Source: an uncultured Porticoccus sp.
GTDB taxonomy: Bacteria; Pseudomonadota; Gammaproteobacteria; Pseudomonadales; Porticoccaceae
Direction of reading: 5' to 3'
Assembly (NCBI GenBank): GCA_947259505.1
Contig: CAMYLT010000003.1
Location: 186,001 to 250,000, forward strand
Length of the DNA: 64,000 nt
Part shown: positions 7,979 to 19,065 of the stretch, piece after piece
Layout of the letters: each line of letters opens with the position of its first letter
Numbering within the stretch: position 1 is the stretch's first letter
Position numbers and translations under genes: made by a program
The notes under the pieces: generated by a model
What the model saw: the letters and a program-made list of their open reading frames with translations, nothing else
Told to the model about the DNA's origin: nothing
The model's database searches: none

Positions 7979-9709
7979 ATGAGTAAACCCGTCATACTCC
8001 AGCGCGCCTTTGACTTGTCCGGTAGCCATTTCGGACCGCAAACCCCACCGTTGTTGCAACGCATCTATGCGGCCCGCGGTGTGACCAGCGAAATAGAGCT
8101 GGAGCGCACCCTCAACCGCCTGCCACACCCGCAGGCACTGCGCGGGCTTGATGCCGCACTGGAGCTGCTGGAACAGGCACTGCGCCAACAGCAACGGGTA
8201 CTGATCGTCGGCGATTTCGATGCCGATGGCGCCACCAGTAGCGCCGTATCCCTGCTGGCACTGCAAGCCATGGGTTTTCAGCAGGTGGATTTCATTGTCC
8301 CCAACCGTTTTGAATACGGCTACGGCCTCACCCCGGAAATCGTCGAGCTGGGCAAAGACTACCAACCCGATCTGATCATCACCGTCGATAACGGCATCTC
8401 CAGCATCAGCGGGGTGGCCGCGGCAAAAGCAGCGGGTATTAAGGTGCTGATTACCGACCACCATCTGCCCGGCGCGCAGTTGCCGGAGGCGGACGCCATC
8501 GTCAACCCCAACCAGCACGGCTGCGAGTTTCCCAGCAAGAATCTCGCTGGAGTGGGGGTGGTGTTTTACCTGATGAGTGCCCTGCGCAGCCGCCTGCGGG
8601 ACAGCGGCTGGTTTGCCAAAAACAACATCCCGGAACCCAATATGGCCGACTGGCTCGACCTGGTGGCGCTGGGCACTGTGGCAGACGTGGTGCCGCTGGA
8701 TGCCACCAACCGCATTCTGGTGCACCAGGGTTTGCAGCGCATTCGTGCCGGTAAAACCCGTCCGGGTATTCAGGCACTGTTGGATCTCTCAGGCCGAGAT
8801 CGCCAGCGTCTGGTATCCGCCGACCTCGGCTTTGCCATTGGCCCGCGGCTCAATGCCGCCGGGCGGCTCGACGACATGTCCATCGGCATCCAGTGCCTGC
8901 TGGAAACAGACCCCTACCTGGCGCGGGAATACGCCGTGCAACTGGACGAACTGAACCGCGACCGCCGCGTGATCGAAGCTGACATGCAGCGGGAGGCGCT
9001 GGAGGCACTGGATCAGTTGCATCTGGACGAACAGCAACTGCCCTGGGGGCTGTGCCTGTTCGATGCCGACTGGCACCAGGGGGTGGTGGGGCTGCTGGCC
9101 TCGCGCATCAAGGACCGAGTGCACCGCCCGGTGATCGCCTTTGCCGATGCCGGCAATGGCGAGTTCAAAGGCTCTGCCCGGTCCATTCCCGGATTACATA
9201 TCCGCGACGCGCTGGACGCCGTGGCCAGCCGTCATCCGGAGCTGATCAGTAAATTTGGCGGCCACGCCATGGCGGCAGGTCTCAGCCTGCCCGGGGAGCG
9301 CTATTGGGATTTCGTCGCTGCCTTCGACGACGAAGTGCGCCGCCAACTCAGCCCGGCGGACCTTGAGGCGGAAATCCTTACCGACGGCATACTAGAACCT
9401 GGTGAGCTCAATATCGACACCGCCCAGCTGCTGCGGGAATCCGGCCCCTGGGGCCAGCACTTCCCCGAGCCGTTGTTCGAGGGCGAGTTTTTCATCGTCC
9501 AGCAGCGCATCGTCGGCGAAAAACACCTCAAGTTGGTGCTGGCCCTGGATAAAGGAAAACGGCAACTAATCGATGCCATCGCCTTTAACGTAGATACGGA
9601 GCAGTGGCCCAACCCGGCGGCGGAGAAGGTAAGTCTGGTCTACAAGCTGGATATCAACCTGTGGCAGGGCCGGGAGTCGGTGCAGTTGATGGTGGAGTGG
9701 ATTTCGTAG
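7979..9709 (+). CDS. recJ: Single-stranded-DNA-specific 5'-3' exonuclease RecJ
   Basis: RecJ degrades single-stranded DNA 5' to 3' in recombinational and mismatch repair. The 576-residue protein has the DHH phosphoesterase motifs in order: VLIVGDFDADGATSSA (motif I), a downstream motif LIITVDNGI, the signature ITDHHLPG, then LDLVALGTVADVVPL and, towards the C terminus, the DHHA1 motif SKFGGHAMAAGLSL. All metal-binding residues are visible. The gene stands alone between the divergent fadJ and the restriction operon. In Pseudomonas it belongs to the thrC-recJ-prfB-lysS neighbourhood, here split by about 25 kb of other genes. Confidence 0.97.
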   Translation: MSKPVILQRAFDLSGSHFGPQTPPLLQRIYAARGVTSEIELERTLNRLPHPQALRGLDAALELLEQALRQQQRVLIVGDFDADGATSSAVSLLALQAMGFQQVDFIVPNRFEYGYGLTPEIVELGKDYQPDLIITVDNGISSISGVAAAKAAGIKVLITDHHLPGAQLPEADAIVNPNQHGCEFPSKNLAGVGVVFYLMSALRSRLRDSGWFAKNNIPEPNMADWLDLVALGTVADVVPLDATNRILVHQGLQRIRAGKTRPGIQALLDLSGRDRQRLVSADLGFAIGPRLNAAGRLDDMSIGIQCLLETDPYLAREYAVQLDELNRDRRVIEADMQREALEALDQLHLDEQQLPWGLCLFDADWHQGVVGLLASRIKDRVHRPVIAFADAGNGEFKGSARSIPGLHIRDALDAVASRHPELISKFGGHAMAAGLSLPGERYWDFVAAFDDEVRRQLSPADLEAEILTDGILEPGELNIDTAQLLRESGPWGQHFPEPLFEGEFFIVQQRIVGEKHLKLVLALDKGKRQLIDAIAFNVDTEQWPNPAAEKVSLVYKLDINLWQGRESVQLMVEWIS

Positions 9710-9838
9710 TTTTCCTATCAGGCTCGATTTATAGATCAGGTATACTCCGAGCGTTTAATTAGCATTCAGTCGTATCTGAAATATGGTTGGATGTGGTTGG
9801 TATTAACAATACGGGCAAATCAGCGATAAGGCAGTTGC

Positions 9839-12800
9839 ATGATAAAAGAAAGCCAAATAGAACACGGCTTGATCGACAAGCTGGTCGAACTCAAATACAC
9901 CTATCGCTCCGACATCTGCGACAAGGCCACGCTGGATCAGAACTTCCGCCAGAAGTTCGAGGCTCTAAACCGCGTCCGCCTCACCGATGCCGAATTCGCC
10001 CGTCTGCGCGATGAGATCACCACCGCCGATGTCTTCACCGCCGCACAAGCCCTGCGCGAGAAAGGCAAATTCACCCGCGAAGACGGCACTCCACTTGAAT
10101 TTACCCTGGTCAATCTCCGCGACTGGTGCAAAAACGACTTTGAAGTCATCAACCAGCTTCGCATCAACACTGAAAACAGCCACCACCGCTACGATGTTAT
10201 TCTCCTGATCAACGGTGTGCCGGTGGTGCAGATCGAGCTGAAAACGCTACAAATCAGCCCGCGCCGCGCCATGGAGCAGATCGTTGAATACAAAAACGAG
10301 CCTGGGAATGGCTATACCAATTCGCTGCTCTGTTTCATGCAGCTGTTTATCGTTAGCAATGGCAGCGACACCCGTTACTTCGCCAACAACCATCATCAGC
10401 ATTTCAGCTTCAATGCCGACGAGCGCTTTTTACCCATCTATCAGCACGCCGATAAAGACAACAACAAAATTGCCCACCTGCACGACTTTGCCGATGACTT
10501 CCTCGCCAAATGCACGTTGGGGCAGTTGCTCGGCCGCTACATGGTATTGGTGCAAAGCGAGCAAAAGATGCTCATCATGCGCCCCTACCAAATCTATGCG
10601 GTCAAGGCCATTGTCGACGCCATCCACCAGAATCGTGGCAACGGCTATATCTGGCACACCACCGGCAGCGGCAAGACCCTCACCTCCTTCAAGGCCTCGA
10701 CCTTGCTGAAGGACAACCCCGATATTGAAAAATGCCTGTTTGTGGTGGACCGCAAAGACCTCGACCGCCAGACCCGCGAGGAATTTAACAAATTCCAGGA
10801 AGGCTGTGTCGAGCAAAACACCAATACCGAAGTCCTGGTACGCCGCATGTTGTCGGAGGACTACGCCGACAAGGTGATCGTCACCACCATTCAGAAGCTC
10901 GGCCTGGCGCTGGACGAAAACAGCAAAAAGGCACAGCAGCACAAAAATAAAGGCAAGCAAACCTACAAGCAACGGCTTGAACCCCTGCGCGACAAGCGCG
11001 TGGTAATCATCTTCGACGAATGCCACCGCTCCCAGTTTGGCGACAACCATAAGGCCATCAAAGCGTTTTTCCCAAAAGCGCAACTGTTTGGCTTCACCGG
11101 TACGCCGATCTTTGACGACAATGCCTCCTACAAACAATTCGACGGCAATGTGGGTTATTTCAAGACCACCAAAGACATCTTTGAAAAAGAGCTGCACGCC
11201 TACACCATCACCCACGCCATTGAAGACAAAAACGTGTTGAGCTTCCACGTTGATTACTTTGGCAAAGAGGGCGACAAGAAACCGAAGAAGGGGCAGACTC
11301 CGCCGTCGGAAGCCGTCATCAACGCCATACTGGATAAACATGACAGCGCCACCAACCAGCGCCGCTTCAACGCCCTGATGGCCTCGGCCTCGATCAACCA
11401 CGCCATAGAATTCTACGAACTGTTCAAGCACATTCAGGCGCAAAAATTGGCCGACGATGAAACCTACGAGCCGCTGAACATCGCCTGTGTCTTCTCGCCA
11501 CCGGCGCAGGCCGTCGCCAACGACAATAACAGTGATAAAAACGTCAAAGACATCAAGCAGCTACAGGACGACCTGCCCCAGGAAAAGGCAGACAACCAGG
11601 TCGAGCCGGAAAAGAAAAAGGCCGCGCTCATGGCCATCATCAACGATTACAACCGGCAATACGGCAGCAACCACAGTATCAACGATTTTGACCTCTACTA
11701 TCAGGATGTGCAGCAACGCATCAAGGATCACAAATACAGCAACGCCGACTACCCGCGCGAAAACAAGATCGACATCACCATCGTGGTGGATATGTTGCTC
11801 ACCGGCTTTGACTCCAAATACCTCAACGCCCTGTACGTGGATAAAAACCTCAAACACCACGGCCTGATTCAGGCCTTCTCGCGTACCAATCGCGTACTTA
11901 ACGACACCAAGCCCTGGGGCAATATCCTCGACTTTCGCTATCAGGAAACAGAAGTCGATGCCGCCATCCAACTCTTTTCCGGCGCTGCGGCGGACAGGGC
12001 GCGGGAAATCTGGCTGGTCGATCCCGCCCCCAAGGTGGTGGAAAAATACCAGCAGGCCGTGGGCAAACTGCAAACCTTCATGCAAACCAAGGGGCTGGCC
12101 TGCGAGCCCTCGCAAGTGGTCAACCTCAAGGGCGACACCTCCAAGGCGGAATTCATCAACCACTTCAAAGAGGTGCAAAAACTCAAGACCCAACTGGAGC
12201 AATACACCGACCTTGACGACCAGAGCAAGCAGACCATCGAACAAAAACTGCCCACCGATGTCCTGCGCGGCTTCAAGGCCATGTATCTCGACACCGCGCT
12301 GGAGCTGAAGCGCAAACAGGGCAAGGACAACGGCGCGGAAGACGCGGTGGAACAACTGGAGTTCGATCTGGTGCTCTTCTCATCGGCGGTGATCGATTAC
12401 GATTACATCATGGCGCTCATCGCCAAATCCACACAGAAAACTGGCAAGCAGAAGATGACCCGCACGCAACTGATCGAGATGATCAGTTCCAACGCCAACC
12501 TGATGGAAGAACGCGACGACATCATTGACTACATCAACAGCCTGAAAACCGGCGAAGTATTAAGCACAAAAGAAATCAACGATGGCTATCAGGCCTTCAA
12601 GGCGCAAAAGGCTGCCGAGGTATTAAACGCAATCGCCATCAAACACGGGCTGCAAGCCCAGGCGCTGCAAGCCTTTGTCGATGCCATCATGTACCGCATG
12701 GTTTTTGACGGCGAACAGCTCACCGACCTGCTGGCGCCGCTGGAACTGGACTGGAAACAGCGGCGCGTGGCCGAGCTGGCGCTAATGGAAGAGCTGCTGC

Positions 12801-12859
12801 CCTATCTGCAAAAACTGGCCGAAGGGCGTGAGATTTCGGGGTTGAAGGCCTATGAGTAA
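9839..12859 (+). CDS. hsdR: Type I restriction endonuclease subunit R
   Basis: HsdR supplies the ATP-driven DNA translocase and nuclease of a type I restriction-modification complex. The 1006-residue protein shows a PD-(D/E)xK nuclease (Asp119, Glu133 and Lys135 in QIELKT, with a RecB-like Q147xxxY151), a Walker A motif TGSGKT near residue 276, a DECH box in IIFDECHRSQFG near 393, and GFTGTPIF. It opens a four-gene operon and overlaps hsdS by 8 bases. An AAGG site precedes the start. A TATACT box at 9741 may be its -10 element but has no good -35. Having R first is unusual, because hsdM is often first. Confidence 0.96.
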   Translation: MIKESQIEHGLIDKLVELKYTYRSDICDKATLDQNFRQKFEALNRVRLTDAEFARLRDEITTADVFTAAQALREKGKFTREDGTPLEFTLVNLRDWCKNDFEVINQLRINTENSHHRYDVILLINGVPVVQIELKTLQISPRRAMEQIVEYKNEPGNGYTNSLLCFMQLFIVSNGSDTRYFANNHHQHFSFNADERFLPIYQHADKDNNKIAHLHDFADDFLAKCTLGQLLGRYMVLVQSEQKMLIMRPYQIYAVKAIVDAIHQNRGNGYIWHTTGSGKTLTSFKASTLLKDNPDIEKCLFVVDRKDLDRQTREEFNKFQEGCVEQNTNTEVLVRRMLSEDYADKVIVTTIQKLGLALDENSKKAQQHKNKGKQTYKQRLEPLRDKRVVIIFDECHRSQFGDNHKAIKAFFPKAQLFGFTGTPIFDDNASYKQFDGNVGYFKTTKDIFEKELHAYTITHAIEDKNVLSFHVDYFGKEGDKKPKKGQTPPSEAVINAILDKHDSATNQRRFNALMASASINHAIEFYELFKHIQAQKLADDETYEPLNIACVFSPPAQAVANDNNSDKNVKDIKQLQDDLPQEKADNQVEPEKKKAALMAIINDYNRQYGSNHSINDFDLYYQDVQQRIKDHKYSNADYPRENKIDITIVVDMLLTGFDSKYLNALYVDKNLKHHGLIQAFSRTNRVLNDTKPWGNILDFRYQETEVDAAIQLFSGAAADRAREIWLVDPAPKVVEKYQQAVGKLQTFMQTKGLACEPSQVVNLKGDTSKAEFINHFKEVQKLKTQLEQYTDLDDQSKQTIEQKLPTDVLRGFKAMYLDTALELKRKQGKDNGAEDAVEQLEFDLVLFSSAVIDYDYIMALIAKSTQKTGKQKMTRTQLIEMISSNANLMEERDDIIDYINSLKTGEVLSTKEINDGYQAFKAQKAAEVLNAIAIKHGLQAQALQAFVDAIMYRMVFDGEQLTDLLAPLELDWKQRRVAELALMEELLPYLQKLAEGREISGLKAYE

Positions 12860-14168
12860 GCGAAAGAAGAAGGGCTTGGTGCCAGATTTACGTTTTCCTG
12901 AGTTTCAGGGCAAGGGGGAATGGGAGAAGAAAAAGCTAATAGACACAGCAGATAAAAAAGTGAAATGGAGTTTTATCGGTGGTCCATTTGGTTCGAATTT
13001 GAAGTCATCAGATTATATTGAAAGTGGTATACGCATTATTCAGCTGCAGAACATTGGCGATGGTGAGTTTTTGGATGACTACAAGATATATACATCCGAA
13101 GAAAAAGCTAATGAATTGCTGAGCAACAATATTTACCCTGGCGATATCATTCTGTCCAAAATGGGTGATCCAGTTGGCCGTGCCTGCCTAATACCAAATG
13201 CACACAACAGATATGTTATGTGCTCTGACGGTATACGGTTGGTTGTGGATGAGAAGAAATATAGTAAATACTTCGTTTATTCATTAATTAATTCTGTTCA
13301 ATTCCGTTCACTGGTGGAGAAGACCGCAACTGGTTCAACGAGAAAGCGCATTGGTTTAGCCGAGTTAAAAAACCTACCAATGGGTATCCCAGTCCAACGG
13401 GACGAACAACAAAAAATTGCCGATTGCCTCGCTTCCATCGACGCGCTGGTCACCTTTCAGATCCAAAAACTCGATGGTCTCAAAGCCCATAAAAAAGGCC
13501 TGATGCAGCAACTCTTCCCCGCCGAAGGCGGAACCCTGCCCAAACTACGCTTTCCTGAGTTTCGGGATAAGGGTGAGTGGGAAATAAAGCGACTGGAGGA
13601 TTTTGCAATAATTGTAAGAGGCGGTTCGCCTCGACCAATTGACGAATACCTTACCAATGAGGCTAATGGCCTTAATTGGTTAAAAATAGGGGACATTGAC
13701 AAGGAGTCCAAGTTTGTCACGAATACACAAGAAAAAGTTATCCCATCCGCTTTGGCTAAAACGCGAGTAGTCAATCCTGGAGATTTAATACTTTCAAACT
13801 CTATGAGCTTTGGTCGTCCATACATTCTAGAAATAAAAACTTGTATCCATGACGGATGGATAGCGGTTTCTGAAATTGATAAAAGCCTTGATAGAGACTT
13901 TCTCTACTATTTAATGATGACTTCAGCGAGTCAAACATATTTCACAAACAATGCTGCTGGCAGTGGCGTGCAAAATCTTAATGCAGACATCATTAAACTT
14001 TTACCTGTTTCATTACCATCCAAAAAAGAACAACAAAAAATCACTGATTGCCTCGCCTCCATCGACGAGCTGATCACCGCCAAAACCCAAAAGATCGACG
14101 ACCTCAAGGCTCATAAAAAAGGCCTGATGCAGCGACTTTTCCCGAAGCCAGAACTGAATAAGACATGA
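12852..14168 (+). CDS. hsdS: Type I restriction-modification specificity subunit S
   Basis: HsdS recognises the bipartite DNA target for both methylation and restriction. The 438-residue protein is two tandem half-units. Each begins with a LRFPEF(x)3KGEWE motif and ends with a spacer EQQKI(A/T)DCLASID...LKAHKKGLMQ(Q/R)LFP. Between them lie two divergent target-recognition domains, about residues 25-180 and 245-390. The spacers are also repeated at DNA level (13404-13519 and 14028-14143). The recognition domains are visibly more AT-rich than hsdR and hsdM, as is common for exchanged specificity modules. It overlaps prrC by ATGA. The recognised sequence cannot be predicted. Confidence 0.95.
   Translation: MSKRKKKGLVPDLRFPEFQGKGEWEKKKLIDTADKKVKWSFIGGPFGSNLKSSDYIESGIRIIQLQNIGDGEFLDDYKIYTSEEKANELLSNNIYPGDIILSKMGDPVGRACLIPNAHNRYVMCSDGIRLVVDEKKYSKYFVYSLINSVQFRSLVEKTATGSTRKRIGLAELKNLPMGIPVQRDEQQKIADCLASIDALVTFQIQKLDGLKAHKKGLMQQLFPAEGGTLPKLRFPEFRDKGEWEIKRLEDFAIIVRGGSPRPIDEYLTNEANGLNWLKIGDIDKESKFVTNTQEKVIPSALAKTRVVNPGDLILSNSMSFGRPYILEIKTCIHDGWIAVSEIDKSLDRDFLYYLMMTSASQTYFTNNAAGSGVQNLNADIIKLLPVSLPSKKEQQKITDCLASIDELITAKTQKIDDLKAHKKGLMQRLFPKPELNKT
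13404..13519 (+). repeat. hsdS direct repeat, copy 1 (central spacer)
   Basis: This 116-bp segment codes for the first conserved spacer of HsdS. It aligns without gaps to 14028-14143 and includes a 22-base identical core at 13488-13509. Such repeats permit recombination that swaps, deletes or duplicates a recognition domain. Confidence 0.85.
14028..14143 (+). repeat. hsdS direct repeat, copy 2 (C-terminal spacer)
   Basis: This is the second copy of the 116-bp conserved spacer. The identical core lies at 14112-14133. The two copies are 624 bp apart, which is exactly 208 codons, so recombination between them would keep the reading frame and give a half-size S protein. Confidence 0.85.
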
Positions 14169-15349
14169 GCGGACTACGCACTTACCAGAGCTTGAGAACT
14201 TTGGTCACCCGGTTGCGCGACGACCTAAATAATAAGGAATTGGTTCTTCTTTATGCCTACAATCGCACAGGGAAGACTAGGTTGTCTATGGAATTCAAAG
14301 ATCGAGGGAAGCGAAATAACGGAGGTAAACCTAACACCCTTTATTTCAACGCTTACACCGAAGACCTATTCACATGGGAAAATGATCTCGAGAATGACTC
14401 TGTTCGTGGGATGAAAGTAAACTATTTGTCAAAATTCTTTGATGGGTTCACAAACTTAGGTCTTGAACCAACTATCAATGAATATCTCAATCGGTATGCT
14501 GACTTCGATTTTGATTTTGAATACAAGGAAATTCAGCAACAGGGAGAATCATTCTCTAAACCTGACTTTGTAAGCTTTAGTAAGGAGGGGCGAGACAACA
14601 TCAAAATCTCACGAGGGGAGGAAAACGTCTTTATCTGGTGCCTCTTCTTGGCCATCTGCGAACGTGTTCTGGACGACCACGAATCTTATCGATGGGTGAA
14701 ATACCTTTACATCGATGACCCGATTTCCTCCCTTGATGACAACAATGCCATTGCTGTCGCTTGCGACCTCGCCAAAATCCTCCGCCGAGCCGCCAACCGT
14801 AAAGATGAGAGCGATGCTCCTGATCCAATCAAGGTTGTCGTCTCCTCCCATCATTCACTCTTTTTCAACGTGATGTGCAACGAGATCGGCAGATCAAAGG
14901 AAGGGGAGCCCGCGGTGAGACACAAACGTTATTTCCTCCATCGTCCCAACAGCGAGGGTAAATACACTTTGCGCGCCACTGAAGACACGCCCTTCTTCCA
15001 CCACGTCGCTACTCTCGCCGAGCTGCAGAAAGCAGCCGATTCAAACATCGGCATCCTTTACACTTTCCACTTCAACGCTCTGCGCAGCATCATGGAGAAG
15101 ACCGCCGCCTTCTTTGGCCACTCTGACATCTCTTTCTGTCTCAAGGCTCTTGATGACGACGAAAATCGAGCGCTTTTTAACCGAGCTCTCAACCTCCTCA
15201 GTCACGGCAAATATGCCATTCACGAACCAACTCCAATGGGTGAAGACAACCAAAACCTCTTCCGCCTAATACTCAACAACTTTATTGCTCGATTCCAATT
15301 CGATCTACCGGAAATCCTTGGCGAGTCAACAACCGAGACAACAGCATGA
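14165..15349 (+). CDS. prrC: PrrC-type anticodon nuclease associated with type I restriction
   Basis: PrrC-type proteins are held inactive by a type I restriction complex. When phage blocks the complex they cut tRNA in the anticodon loop; E. coli PrrC cuts tRNA-Lys. This 394-residue protein is almost the length of E. coli PrrC. Seen: an ABC-type ATPase with Walker A YAYNRTGKTRLS (30-41), signature-like KISRGEE (147-153), Walker B plus D-loop KYLYIDDPISSLDDNN (179-194) and H-loop VVSSHHSLFFN (225-235); then a HEPN-like C-terminal part with Arg307, Glu311 and His347, matching the R...E...H triad (R320, E324, H356 in E. coli). No zinc hook is present, so it is not RloC. It overlaps hsdS and hsdM by 4 bases each. 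The first Walker A Gly is Ala. The tRNA target is unproven. Confidence 0.85.
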   Translation: MSGLRTYQSLRTLVTRLRDDLNNKELVLLYAYNRTGKTRLSMEFKDRGKRNNGGKPNTLYFNAYTEDLFTWENDLENDSVRGMKVNYLSKFFDGFTNLGLEPTINEYLNRYADFDFDFEYKEIQQQGESFSKPDFVSFSKEGRDNIKISRGEENVFIWCLFLAICERVLDDHESYRWVKYLYIDDPISSLDDNNAIAVACDLAKILRRAANRKDESDAPDPIKVVVSSHHSLFFNVMCNEIGRSKEGEPAVRHKRYFLHRPNSEGKYTLRATEDTPFFHHVATLAELQKAADSNIGILYTFHFNALRSIMEKTAAFFGHSDISFCLKALDDDENRALFNRALNLLSHGKYAIHEPTPMGEDNQNLFRLILNNFIARFQFDLPEILGESTTETTA

Positions 15350-16971
15350 CCAAAGAAGAACTGAACCAACTTGGCAAAACCCTCTGGGGTATCGCCGATC
15401 AGTTACGCGGCGCGATGAATGCCGATGACTTTCGCGACTATATGCTGTCGTTTCTGTTTTTGCGCTACCTCTCGGACAACTACGAAGCAGCGGCCCAAAA
15501 AGAGCTGGGCCGGGACTATCCCACGCCCGAAGAGGGCGACCGGCGTGCACCGCTGGCGATCTGGTATGAAGACAATGCTGGGGATATCGCGGACTTTGAA
15601 AAACAGATGCGCCTCAAGGTGCATTATGTGATTGAACCGCAATACCTGTGGAGCAGTATCGCCGAAATGGCGCGAACTCAGCACGCCGATTTGTTGATCA
15701 CGCTGTGGAATGGTTTCAAGTACATTGAAGAAAAATCGTTTGCCAGCGCGTTTCAGGGTCTGTTCTCCGAGATCAATCTGCATTCGGAAAAGCTGGGCAA
15801 GAAACCCGCTGACCGCAATGCCAAGCTCTGTACCATCATCCAGAAGATCGCCGAGGGTATTTCACAGTTCAGTACCGATACCGATATCCTGGGCGATGCC
15901 TATGAATACCTGATCGGTCAGTTCGCCGCCGGATCCGGTAAAAAGGCGGGCGAGTTCTATACCCCGCAACAGATCTCCAGCATTCTTTCCGCCATTGTCA
16001 CGCTGGACGGACAGGAACCGGCCACCGGTAAAAGGAAAAAGCTTAACCGTGTACTCGATTTCGCCTGTGGCTCCGGCTCGCTGTTGTTGAATGTTCGGAA
16101 CCAGCTTCGAGAAGCGGGTGGCACAATCGGCAAGATCTACGGCCAGGAAAAAAATATCACTACCTACAACTTGGCGCGCATGAACATGCTGCTGCATGGA
16201 GTGAAAGATACCGAGTTCGAGATTCATCACGGTGATTCACTGCTGAATGACTGGGAATTGCTGAATGAAATGAACCCGGCCAAAAAGCTTCAATGTGATG
16301 CCGTGGTCGCTAATCCGCCGTTTAGTTACCGATGGGAACCGAACGAAACACTGGGCGATGATTTCCGTTTTAAAAGCTACGGCCTGGCTCCTAAATCCGC
16401 CGCCGATTTCGCCTTTCTCTTGCACGGTTTTCACTTTCTAAGTGACGACGGCGTGATGGCGATCATCCTGCCGCACGGCGTGCTGTTCCGTGGCGGCGCG
16501 GAAGCCCGCATACGCACCAAACTGCTGAAAGACGGTCATATCGACACAGTGATCGGTCTGCCCGTCAACCTGTTTTTCTCCACCGGAATACCTATTTGTA
16601 TTTTGGTGTTGAAACGCTGCAAAAAACCGGATGACGTGCTGTTCATCAATGCCAGTGACAGTGAAAACTTCGAAAAGGGCAAACGGCAAAACAAGCTGCT
16701 GCCGGAGCATATTGACAAAATTGTCGATACCTACCAGTTCCGTAAGGAAGAAGAGCGCTACGCCCGCCGCGTATCCATGGAGGAGATCGAGAAGAACGAT
16801 TATAACCTGAATATTTCCCGCTATGTGAGCACGGCAAAATCTGAAGAGCAGGTTGACTTAAAAGCAGTGAACACGGATCTGGTAAGCCTTGAACAGAGAA
16901 TTGTTGATAACACAAAAAATCACAATGAGTTCCTTAAACAGCTTGGGTTGCCACTTTTACCCCTCTCGTAA
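15346..16971 (+). CDS. hsdM: Type I restriction-modification DNA methyltransferase subunit M
   Basis: HsdM transfers a methyl group from S-adenosylmethionine to adenine in the site chosen by HsdS. In the 541-residue protein the N-terminal helical HsdM domain is seen (MLSFLFLRYLSDNYE, about residues 28-42), then SAM motif I LDFACGSGSLLLN near residue 237 and catalytic motif IV ANPPF near 322, and GVLFRGGAEARIR. It is the last gene of hsdR-hsdS-prrC-hsdM and its ATGA overlaps the prrC stop. No terminator hairpin is evident after it. With M last, protection of host DNA depends on translation through the whole operon. Confidence 0.96.
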   Translation: MTKEELNQLGKTLWGIADQLRGAMNADDFRDYMLSFLFLRYLSDNYEAAAQKELGRDYPTPEEGDRRAPLAIWYEDNAGDIADFEKQMRLKVHYVIEPQYLWSSIAEMARTQHADLLITLWNGFKYIEEKSFASAFQGLFSEINLHSEKLGKKPADRNAKLCTIIQKIAEGISQFSTDTDILGDAYEYLIGQFAAGSGKKAGEFYTPQQISSILSAIVTLDGQEPATGKRKKLNRVLDFACGSGSLLLNVRNQLREAGGTIGKIYGQEKNITTYNLARMNMLLHGVKDTEFEIHHGDSLLNDWELLNEMNPAKKLQCDAVVANPPFSYRWEPNETLGDDFRFKSYGLAPKSAADFAFLLHGFHFLSDDGVMAIILPHGVLFRGGAEARIRTKLLKDGHIDTVIGLPVNLFFSTGIPICILVLKRCKKPDDVLFINASDSENFEKGKRQNKLLPEHIDKIVDTYQFRKEEERYARRVSMEEIEKNDYNLNISRYVSTAKSEEQVDLKAVNTDLVSLEQRIVDNTKNHNEFLKQLGLPLLPLS

Positions 16972-17012
16972 TTTAGGGGACGCCTGCTAACTGTCGCATA
17001 GGTGTACTCTTC

Positions 17013-17147
17013 AATTGACTAAACTGGATGTAAGTTCACAAAGGAACAGGGGCTGCCCCTGCACCCACCATGAAACTACCGCTGGTCTTCAGAGTTGCTT
17101 TCTTCGCCGCCGTCTGCTTTTCGGTGCTGTTGATTCTGAACTTATAG
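17013..17147 (+). pseudogene. Truncated copy of the 5' end of the membrane-protein gene at 18965
   Basis: This stretch repeats the upstream region and first codons of the gene at 18965. It has the same AATTGACTAAACT element, a GGGG-N3-CCCC mini-hairpin, CACCATGAAACT, and codons for MKLPLVFRVAFFAAVCFSV. After about 19 codons an internal deletion joins it to codons for LLILN and then a TAG stop at 17145-17147, leaving a 25-codon relic (17070-17147). The complete copy lies on the other side of the oleate hydratase gene. The rest of the gap to 17259 (about 110 bases) shows nothing else apart from the hydratase ribosome-binding site. Confidence 0.75.
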
Positions 17148-17259
17148 CAATACACGTCCAGCGATCCGTAAGGAAAGCGTGATTTTCTTGTCGAATTAAC
17201 CTTGCGAGTAAAACAAGTGATGGTTAGTCATAGATAGCGATACTCAGTGGGGTAAAGCG

Positions 17260-18864
17260 ATGCAGCGAGCAAAGAACACCAACCCCAAAGACTCCAGGGC
17301 CTACCTTGTCGGCAGCGGCATTGCCTCTCTGGCCAGTGCGGTTTATCTGATCAAGGATGCCGGGTTACTCGGTGGCAATATTCATATCCTCGAGCAGGAT
17401 GACATTCCCGGTGGTGCGCTCGACGGTGCCGGCGATGCGGAAAACGGCTTTATCATCCGCGGCGGGCGGATGCATGAAGAGCACTATGTCTGCTACTGGG
17501 ATCTGCTCTCCAATATCCCTTCCAATGATGACCCCAATGTCTCCGTTAAAGACGAGTCGTTTGAATTCAACGCCCGCTATGTTTCTCACGCCCAGGCGCG
17601 GTTGCTGAAAGCCGGCGAAAGGATGGATGTTTCCTCCTTTGGCTTGTCGTTAGCCGATCAGGCGGACTTGTTGAAGCTGATGTTTTCTGCCGAGAAATCC
17701 CTGGACAACATCCGCATACAGGACTGGTTTGGGGACGCATTCTTCACCAGCAATTACTGGTACCTCTGGACCTCGATGTTTGCTTTCCAGCAGTGGAGCA
17801 GCGTGGCGGAGATGCGCCGCTATATGAAGCGCTTTATTCACCTGCTGGACGGTATGCCCCGGCTGGGTGGCGTGATGCGCACCAAATACAATCAGTACCA
17901 TTCGGTGGTGCTGCCGCTGATGCGTTACCTGGAGGGCCTCGGCGTTCATTTTCAGACGCGGACGCAGGTGGTCGATATCGATTTCGAGTTGTCTGCCGAG
18001 GCGAAAACCGCCACGGCGATTCACATCATCAATAAAACCGGCAGCGAAGAGAAGATTGAACTCGGCGACAACGATTATGTGTTTATCACCAACGGCTCTA
18101 TTACCGAGAGCACCGACTATGGTTCATGGACAAAGGCGCCAGTACTGAAAGACAAGGCATCATCGGGGGCATGGACACTGTGGGAAAAAATCGCCCGCAA
18201 GGACAAGGCGTTCGGCAACCCCGGTGTGTTCAGTGACCATATCGATTTGCAGAAGTGGTATTCCTTTACCGCCACCATCAAGGACGACACCTTCCACGAT
18301 TACATGGAAGATTTCTCCGGCAATTTAAGTGGCACCGGCGGCCTGGTGACCATGACGGACTCCAGCTGGTTGATGTCCATTGTCATCGCCCGCCAGCCGC
18401 ACTTCCCCAACCAGCCCAAAGACGTGAAAGTGTTCTGGGGCTATGCCCTGTATCCCGACAACGAAGGCGATTACGTGAAGAAAAAAATGTCGGAATGCAA
18501 TGGCGAGGAAATACTGGAAGAGCTGTGGTATCAACTCAAGGTTCAGGACCTGATGAAGCCGATTGTGGCTGCTGGCAAAGTGAATTGCATTCCGGTTGCC
18601 ATGCCCTTTATCGACAGCCTGTTTATGCCTAGGGCTCGGGGTGATCGCCCGGACGTATTGCCGGAGGGTGCCACTAACTTTGCCTTTCTCGGTCAGTTTG
18701 CCGAAGTGCCCAAGGATTGCGTGTTTACCGTGGAATACTCCGTGCGCTGTGCGCAAACCGCTGTGTATGGTCTGTTTGACACCGATAAAGAAGTGCTGCC
18801 GGTTTACGACTCCATCCACAAGCCCAGCGTTTTAATCAATGCGATGAAAGCCCTTAGCCGGTAG
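17260..18864 (+). CDS. ohyA: Oleate hydratase (myosin-cross-reactive-antigen family)
   Basis: Oleate hydratase is an FAD protein that adds water across the cis-9 double bond of oleic acid to give 10-hydroxystearate. The 534-residue protein shows the FAD-binding segment LVGSGIASLASAVYLI near the N terminus (about residues 16-31), followed by ILEQDDIPGGALDG, the signature IRGGRMHEEHYVCYWDLLSN with the expected catalytic acid, and YNQYHSVVLPL with the conserved Tyr. An ATG with GGGG at 7-8 bases gives the start. It is monocistronic and sits between two related copies of another gene's 5' end, which suggests insertion or rearrangement. The role is probably fatty-acid detoxification or modification. 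Confidence 0.93.
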   Translation: MQRAKNTNPKDSRAYLVGSGIASLASAVYLIKDAGLLGGNIHILEQDDIPGGALDGAGDAENGFIIRGGRMHEEHYVCYWDLLSNIPSNDDPNVSVKDESFEFNARYVSHAQARLLKAGERMDVSSFGLSLADQADLLKLMFSAEKSLDNIRIQDWFGDAFFTSNYWYLWTSMFAFQQWSSVAEMRRYMKRFIHLLDGMPRLGGVMRTKYNQYHSVVLPLMRYLEGLGVHFQTRTQVVDIDFELSAEAKTATAIHIINKTGSEEKIELGDNDYVFITNGSITESTDYGSWTKAPVLKDKASSGAWTLWEKIARKDKAFGNPGVFSDHIDLQKWYSFTATIKDDTFHDYMEDFSGNLSGTGGLVTMTDSSWLMSIVIARQPHFPNQPKDVKVFWGYALYPDNEGDYVKKKMSECNGEEILEELWYQLKVQDLMKPIVAAGKVNCIPVAMPFIDSLFMPRARGDRPDVLPEGATNFAFLGQFAEVPKDCVFTVEYSVRCAQTAVYGLFDTDKEVLPVYDSIHKPSVLINAMKALSR

Positions 18865-18908: not shown

Positions 18909-19065
18909 GATTGACTAAACTGCATGTAGGTTCATCAGGAAATGGGGTTTCCCCTGCATCCACCATGAAACTGCCTTTGGCCTTCAGAGTCGCTTTCTTC
19001 GCCGCCGTTTGTTTTGCGGTGCCGGTGACCGTTGCCCTGGTTGTGCTGGTGATCCTGAACTTCCA
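18909..19065 (+). repeat. Second copy of the duplicated leader and 5' gene segment
   Basis: This is the intact counterpart of 17013-17147. It aligns through the ATTGACTAAACT element, the GGGG-N3-CCCC mini-hairpin and the first codons of the membrane-protein gene. The two copies are in direct orientation, 1.9 kb apart, and bracket the oleate hydratase gene exactly. Confidence 0.75.

Follow-up and report, generated by a model that had tools for sequence, protein, structure and literature searches.

We analysed a 64,000-nucleotide stretch of DNA from an uncultured Porticoccus sp. (positions 186,001 to 250,000 of contig CAMYLT010000003.1, assembly GCA_947259505.1; hereafter the window). It contains a four-gene operon that is very probably a horizontally acquired type I restriction-modification (R-M) system, the third gene of which encodes PrrC, an anticodon nuclease guarding the restriction enzyme. 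The operon is a sound but unexceptional example of a known PrrC defense system, and its gene order, hsdR-hsdS-prrC-hsdM (R-S-PrrC-M), has already been cloned and tested elsewhere. The genes are arranged as follows.

9839..12859, + strand: hsdR, EcoR124-like type I restriction subunit, 1006 amino acids (aa)
12852..14168, + strand: hsdS, specificity subunit, 438 aa, overlapping hsdR by 8 nt and prrC by 4 nt
14165..15349, + strand: prrC, 394 aa, ATP-binding cassette (ABC) ATPase with a C-terminal anticodon nuclease domain
15346..16971, + strand: hsdM, DNA adenine methyltransferase subunit, 541 aa, overlapping prrC by 4 nt

A preliminary description of this DNA, made from its letters alone, had reported four overlapping genes at 9839-16971, and the coordinates, the successive overlaps of 8, 4 and 4 nt and the family models all bear it out. 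All four frames are open and intact. HsdR matched TIGR00348 (371 bits over cut-off), the Pfam and NCBIfam models PF12008 (EcoR124_C), PF04313 (HSDR_N) and SWI2_SNF2, and the PADLOC model REase_I (1079 bits). HsdS contains PF01420 (Methylase_S) in two stretches and scored 296 bits with PADLOC Specificity_I, and HsdM matched TIGR00497 (382 bits over cut-off), PF02384 (N6_Mtase, 348 bits) and PF12161 (HsdM_N). The complete HsdR, HsdM and HsdS subunits, with an HsdR of the EcoR124 type, identify the operon as a type I R-M system of the IC-like kind.

PrrC scored 423.6 bits against the PADLOC model PDLC02360 (E 1.6e-127), and two E. coli homologues (L131 and L132 in our numbering of loci) scored 428 and 439 with the same model. 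In a comparison by hhalign, the PrrC family matched an E. coli PrrC homologue with a probability of 100 over 345 columns at 33% identity. No NCBIfam model matched PrrC at E<=0.001, and Pfam gave AAA_13 only. The following functional positions were located in the protein.

14255..14278, + strand: Walker A of PrrC, residues 31-38, AYNRTGKT, with Arg34
14603..14620, + strand: ABC signature region of PrrC, residues 147-152, KISRGE
14702..14737, + strand: Walker B and D-loop of PrrC, residues 180-191, YLYIDDPISSLD
14849..14851, + strand: switch (H-loop) His229 of PrrC, invariant in 110 of 110 aligned rows
15083..15097, + strand: catalytic Arg307 and Glu311 of PrrC (R-X3-E), kept in 110 of 110 rows
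15203..15205, + strand: catalytic His347 of PrrC, kept in 109 of 110 rows

The residue counts cover 100 aligned rows of the R-S-PrrC-M lineage, the window included, and 10 rows of the lineage with the E. coli order; L022 and L004, which are one record, were both counted, and L047, of unreadable order, was left out. Within the first lineage R307 and E311 are present in all 100 rows and H347 in 99, and within the second, to which the three window residues align, the triad is complete in 10 of 10. This conservation supports an active nuclease. The R...E...H residues of E. coli PrrC had been assigned to these same three positions in the preliminary description, and we found them there. It had also credited the protein with a full ABC-type ATPase; the Walker A, signature, Walker B and switch histidine are indeed present, but the Walker A carries Arg34 in place of glycine.

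The order of the genes was compared with that of related loci. In E. coli the prr locus is ordered hsdM-hsdS-prrC-hsdR (M-S-PrrC-R) (PMC3014915), and the gene calls agree with the earlier observation that the window differs from it. Matches were present in 113 plasmid records. In the first 12 that were inspected, which come from Alpha-, Beta- and Gammaproteobacteria, Bacteroidota, Chlorobiota and Cyanobacteriota, PrrC always follows hsdS, and the order is R-S-PrrC-M wherever hsdR and hsdM could be placed. Together with 80 genome contigs, 16 phylum or order genomes, two E. coli loci and the window, these 12 records made up a set of 111 loci (L094 and L095 had been dropped beforehand, and the longer loci L126 and L112 stand in for them). 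The order was R-S-PrrC-M in 86, M-S-PrrC-R in 10 and other in 15 (S-PrrC-M in seven, R-S-PrrC in three, PrrC-M in two, and R-PrrC-M-S, R-PrrC-M and S-PrrC-R in one each). In ten of the 15 odd loci a contig end truncates the operon next to the missing gene. No hsdR was detected in the roughly 9 kb upstream in L040 and L053, hsdR and prrC have no hsdS between them in L079 and L082, and in L047, which is truncated on one side, the stretch read contains no hsdM. The proportion of 86 in 111 is not a frequency, because the contigs, the best 80 of at least 565 relatives (at least 593 stretches), were found with a query built from R-S-PrrC-M relatives alone. The even phylum sample gives the fair estimate: PrrC matched at E<=1e-30 in 17 of 398 genomes, one of them that of the window, and the 15 other neighborhoods, leaving out one partial match (G267, locus L110), showed R-S-PrrC-M in seven, M-S-PrrC-R in seven and S-PrrC-M at a contig end in one. 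We therefore rejected novelty of the gene order, or its confinement to this genome, since the phylum sample contains it as often as the E. coli order. The suggestion of an independent version of the system was likewise not supported, since the order is common to a large lineage and a Klebsiella R-S-PrrC-M system has already been cloned (PMC11555353). Literature listings searched by wording showed no description of R-S-PrrC-M; the Methods of PMC11555353 nevertheless list it.

PrrC operons fall into two old lineages, in which hsdR and hsdM have changed places while the hsdS-prrC junction is the same. In the PrrC tree, a quick search with support from the Shimodaira-Hasegawa-like approximate likelihood ratio test only (L022 left out, L047 included), one branch with a support of 100 parts the 10 M-S-PrrC-R rows from the 100 others, and the window clusters with the R-S-PrrC-M lineage. 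Across 74 R-S-PrrC-M and 10 M-S-PrrC-R loci with all four genes long enough, the median identity between lineages was 0.34 for HsdR, 0.37 for HsdM and 0.33 for PrrC, compared to 0.71, 0.76 and 0.62, respectively, within the R-S-PrrC-M lineage. The maximal PrrC identity between lineages (0.38) lies below the minimum within the M-S-PrrC-R lineage (0.47). The window proteins are 36% (HsdR), 37% (HsdM) and 34% (PrrC) identical to the E. coli homologues. All three proteins show the same gap, so that the cassette as a whole must have divided long ago, each form keeping its order. Within the lineage, PrrC distances track those of HsdR and HsdM (Spearman 0.55 and 0.51), values reached by none of 300 permutations.

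The gap between hsdS and prrC was at most 30 nt in 81 of 93 loci of the R-S-PrrC-M type and in all eight M-S-PrrC-R loci measured, and exceeded 300 nt in 10 of the 93, mostly with an extra gene between. As this junction is common to both lineages, PrrC presumably has to be made or docked next to HsdS, a proposal open to experiment. Thirteen phylum-sample genomes, the window's included, have an HsdM at least 75% identical, and in nine of them PrrC matched at E<=1e-30. The remaining four have contigs that stop inside hsdM or no more than about 1.5 kb upstream of it, too near for the absence of PrrC beside close HsdM relatives to be used as evidence.

The genome of the window (2.46 Mb, 94% complete) holds its only PrrC and its only N6_Mtase-family match in this operon. 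Among 16 congeners (completeness 78-100%), none had PrrC at E<=1e-30 and none a close hsdR, with three weak partial matches to the latter. The operon occupies an island in which homology to the congeners breaks:

about 9698..17229, no strand assigned: island between recJ and an oleate hydratase gene

Two congener loci (L178 and L179) are homologous to the window up to about 9697 and again from about 17230 or 17254, but not in between, with the exception of a repeat inside the island (17014-17133) that matches L179 elsewhere. In 1-kb windows, the guanine plus cytosine (G+C) content was 0.42-0.54 in the operon, compared with 0.57-0.62 towards recJ and 0.52-0.59 on the opposite flank, so that the drop is clear against the former and less clear against the latter. 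The recJ gene is present in all 17 genomes of the genus. In eight congener recJ neighborhoods, the oleate hydratase gene adjoins in two, where the junction measures 2.0 and 1.1 kb and contains other genes; the remaining six had no oleate hydratase match in the stretch read. The absence from 16 congeners, the varying content of the junction and the lower G+C point to gain of the operon at a variable site.

The junction in one of these two congeners carries an AAA_21/OLD-TOPRIM gene (L178, 5298-6554) and in the other a 264-aa open reading frame (ORF) without a Pfam match (L179, 9160-9951); it may be a defense hotspot in the genus. Direct repeats of about 120 nt, 83% identical (17014-17133 and 18910-19028), flank the oleate hydratase gene (17260-18864), and L179 has a comparable repeat next to a second 3' recJ fragment. 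Together, these repeats suggest that the oleate hydratase gene is also mobile.

By analogy with the characterized systems, the operon would work in two layers. HsdM2S would methylate host sites and HsdR2M2S would cut unmodified DNA. PrrC would be made together with the Hsd subunits and be held latent on the complex, silenced by it as in E. coli. If the restriction enzyme were disturbed by a phage inhibitor or another event, the PrrC ABC-ATPase, which in E. coli responds to GTP and dTTP, would free the C-terminal nuclease, and this would then cut an anticodon loop, most likely that of tRNA-Lys, so that translation stops. The latency, the release trigger and the tRNA-Lys specificity are carried over here from E. 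coli PrrC and Klebsiella PrrC170. In E. coli PrrC, Asp287 contacts the wobble base (PMC3014915). The window equivalent by spacing is D274 (R320 minus 33 in E. coli, counted from R307 here), in a region where the alignment is loose; this column holds Asp in 89, Glu in eight, Asn in one and other residues in two of 100 rows, and Asp in four and Asn in six of the 10 loosely aligned rows of the other lineage. On this analogy, tRNA-Lys is the likeliest target of the window PrrC.

Several results weigh against the proposed reading. The AlphaFold2 model of the full PrrC (59-row alignment) had a mean predicted local distance difference test score (pLDDT) of 82.6 and a predicted template modeling (TM) score of 0.69, and when searched with Foldseek it gave eight matches in the PDB at E<=0.001, to RecN and SMC heads, McrBC, and Retron-Eco7 and Retron-Eco8 complexes, all of them weak (E 1.7e-4 to 6.8e-4, TM-scores 0.23-0.32). 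The C-terminal 113 residues, predicted as a five-helix bundle (mean pLDDT 81.8), had no PDB match at E<=0.001, the best being generic helical bundles. Arg34 could alter or weaken the handling of nucleotides by PrrC. Lastly, the correlation of PrrC with HsdS distances (0.33) was also above all 300 permutations, and part of the correlation with HsdR and HsdM is thus attributable to common descent of the cassette as a whole. Comparison of PrrC with solved structures by phmmer and profile search gave chance-level matches only, and six matches at E<=0.001 in a viral library were all ATPases or unnamed proteins. In the predicted model, R307 and E311 lie on one helix (301-316) and H347 directly follows another (332-346).

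An active nuclease might cut a tRNA other than tRNA-Lys or, like RloC, be triggered by something other than an anti-restriction factor. The identity of just 33-37% between the window PrrC and four E. coli-lineage PrrCs leaves room for such a change, as does the variation of the D274 column within the family. However, the window PrrC itself has D274 and, at 394 aa, lacks the long zinc-hook insert of RloC (658-897 aa; PMC2610378), and PrrC170, which is likewise 35% identical to EcoPrrC and was cloned with the gene set and order of the window operon, targets tRNA-Lys (PMC11555353). We consider a different target or trigger unlikely.

The Walker A arginine was traced through the family. All 10 rows of the E. 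coli-order lineage have Gly at position 34, and the 100 R-S-PrrC-M-lineage rows have Arg in 50, Gly in 46, Cys in one and Ser in one, with two truncated there, so that Arg34 occurs in 50 of 98 assessable PrrCs. In the PrrC tree the change from Gly to Arg is a single event that defines a clade of 52 rows (50 with Arg34, two truncated there), the record titles of which name several phyla, some from metagenome bins alone. C200, R255 and A305 are fixed in the Arg34 rows and mostly different in 16 sister rows, and occur in 4, 17 and 4%, respectively, of all Gly34 rows. An insert of about 11 residues (PrrC residues ~125-135; window ~14537-14569) is present in 25 of the 50 Arg34-type PrrCs and in none of the 16 sister rows, and one further Arg34-type PrrC has a longer insert there. 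The general Walker A pattern tolerates variation at the equivalent of position 34, and hence the ATPase need not be dead. There is a small chance that in this subclade, with its fixed Arg34, C200, R255 and A305, nucleotide sensing, and with it the activation trigger, differs from the GTP/dTTP switch of E. coli PrrC; the fixed P-loop arginine provides a specific position at which to probe nucleotide recognition by PrrC.

The replacement of the Walker A glycine would also suit a PrrC that is no longer a nuclease and either serves the restriction enzyme as an ATPase partner with a structural or regulatory role or is a passenger in decay, but Arg34 arose once and was kept across a clade spanning several titled phyla, and the triad, signature and Walker B are conserved, which makes this reading very improbable. 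Decay in particular was rejected, as the conserved motifs, the clade-wide Arg34 and the intact, overlapping frames would not all survive it.

Other PrrC operons contain additional genes. The commonest is a single related cluster of 17 ORFs, found in both gene orders (loci L035, L043-L046, L048, L049, L066, L073, L082, L085, L112, L114, L118, L121, L122 and L124). The two members scanned (L035 and L112) belong to the RhuM family (PF13310), and a link between RhuM and PrrC has already been noted (PMC3710099). The window genome had no RhuM match. Further companions, in L018, L122 and L050, are a YhcG PDDEXK nuclease, DinD and a Schlafen/AlbA_2 protein, and L010 has a TrlF-family ATPase and an RNA-binding-domain protein between hsdR and hsdS. 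In the Dysgonomonas locus L079 (R-PrrC-M), three hsdS matches on both strands lie downstream of hsdM, an arrangement which we take to resemble invertible hsdS clusters.

Among known systems, PrrC proteins are described as 341-416 aa long, with an Arg-X3-Glu...His triad and linkage to type IC R-M systems (PMC2610378), and have been assigned to HEPN (PMC3710099) and called an RM guardian system (PMC12707154). The window PrrC falls inside this size range. RloC shares with it the ABC-ATPase and the Arg-X3-Glu...His nuclease triad, but has a zinc-hook coiled coil and is rarely R-M-linked (PMC2610378), whereas the window protein is encoded inside a type I operon; an identity as RloC was rejected on size and because the protein has no long insert against PrrC. 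EcoprrI resembles the window in its type IC-like R-M system, in PrrC directly following hsdS, and in the same triad and ABC motifs; it differs in the order M-S-PrrC-R (PMC3014915), in HsdR and HsdM (only 36-37% identity for the E. coli homologues), and in the Walker A, where the E. coli-order lineage has Gly and the window Arg. The window PrrC is 34% identical over about 370 residues to L131 and L132, which are not necessarily EcoprrI itself.

The closest match in organization is the Klebsiella quasipneumoniae PrrC170 system, for which HsdR, HsdS, PrrC and HsdM were cloned with 300 nt before hsdR, the same four genes in the same listed order as in the window (PMC11555353). According to that report, PrrC170 has an ABC-ATPase domain, the system blocked phages T1 and T7, the induced toxin arrested growth, and tRNA sequencing identified tRNA-Lys as the target. 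Its gene order and its identity to EcoPrrC, which is at the between-lineage level, would place PrrC170 in the R-S-PrrC-M lineage. Two K. quasipneumoniae plasmids listed at full length encode a PrrC 49% identical to that of the window, and in one plasmid relative from this species (L186) two additional genes separate hsdR from hsdS, whereas the window operon has no extra genes. With no other N6_Mtase-family match in its genome, the window operon offers a clean case of what, by this analogy, would be a tRNA-cutting suicide enzyme standing guard over a restriction enzyme.

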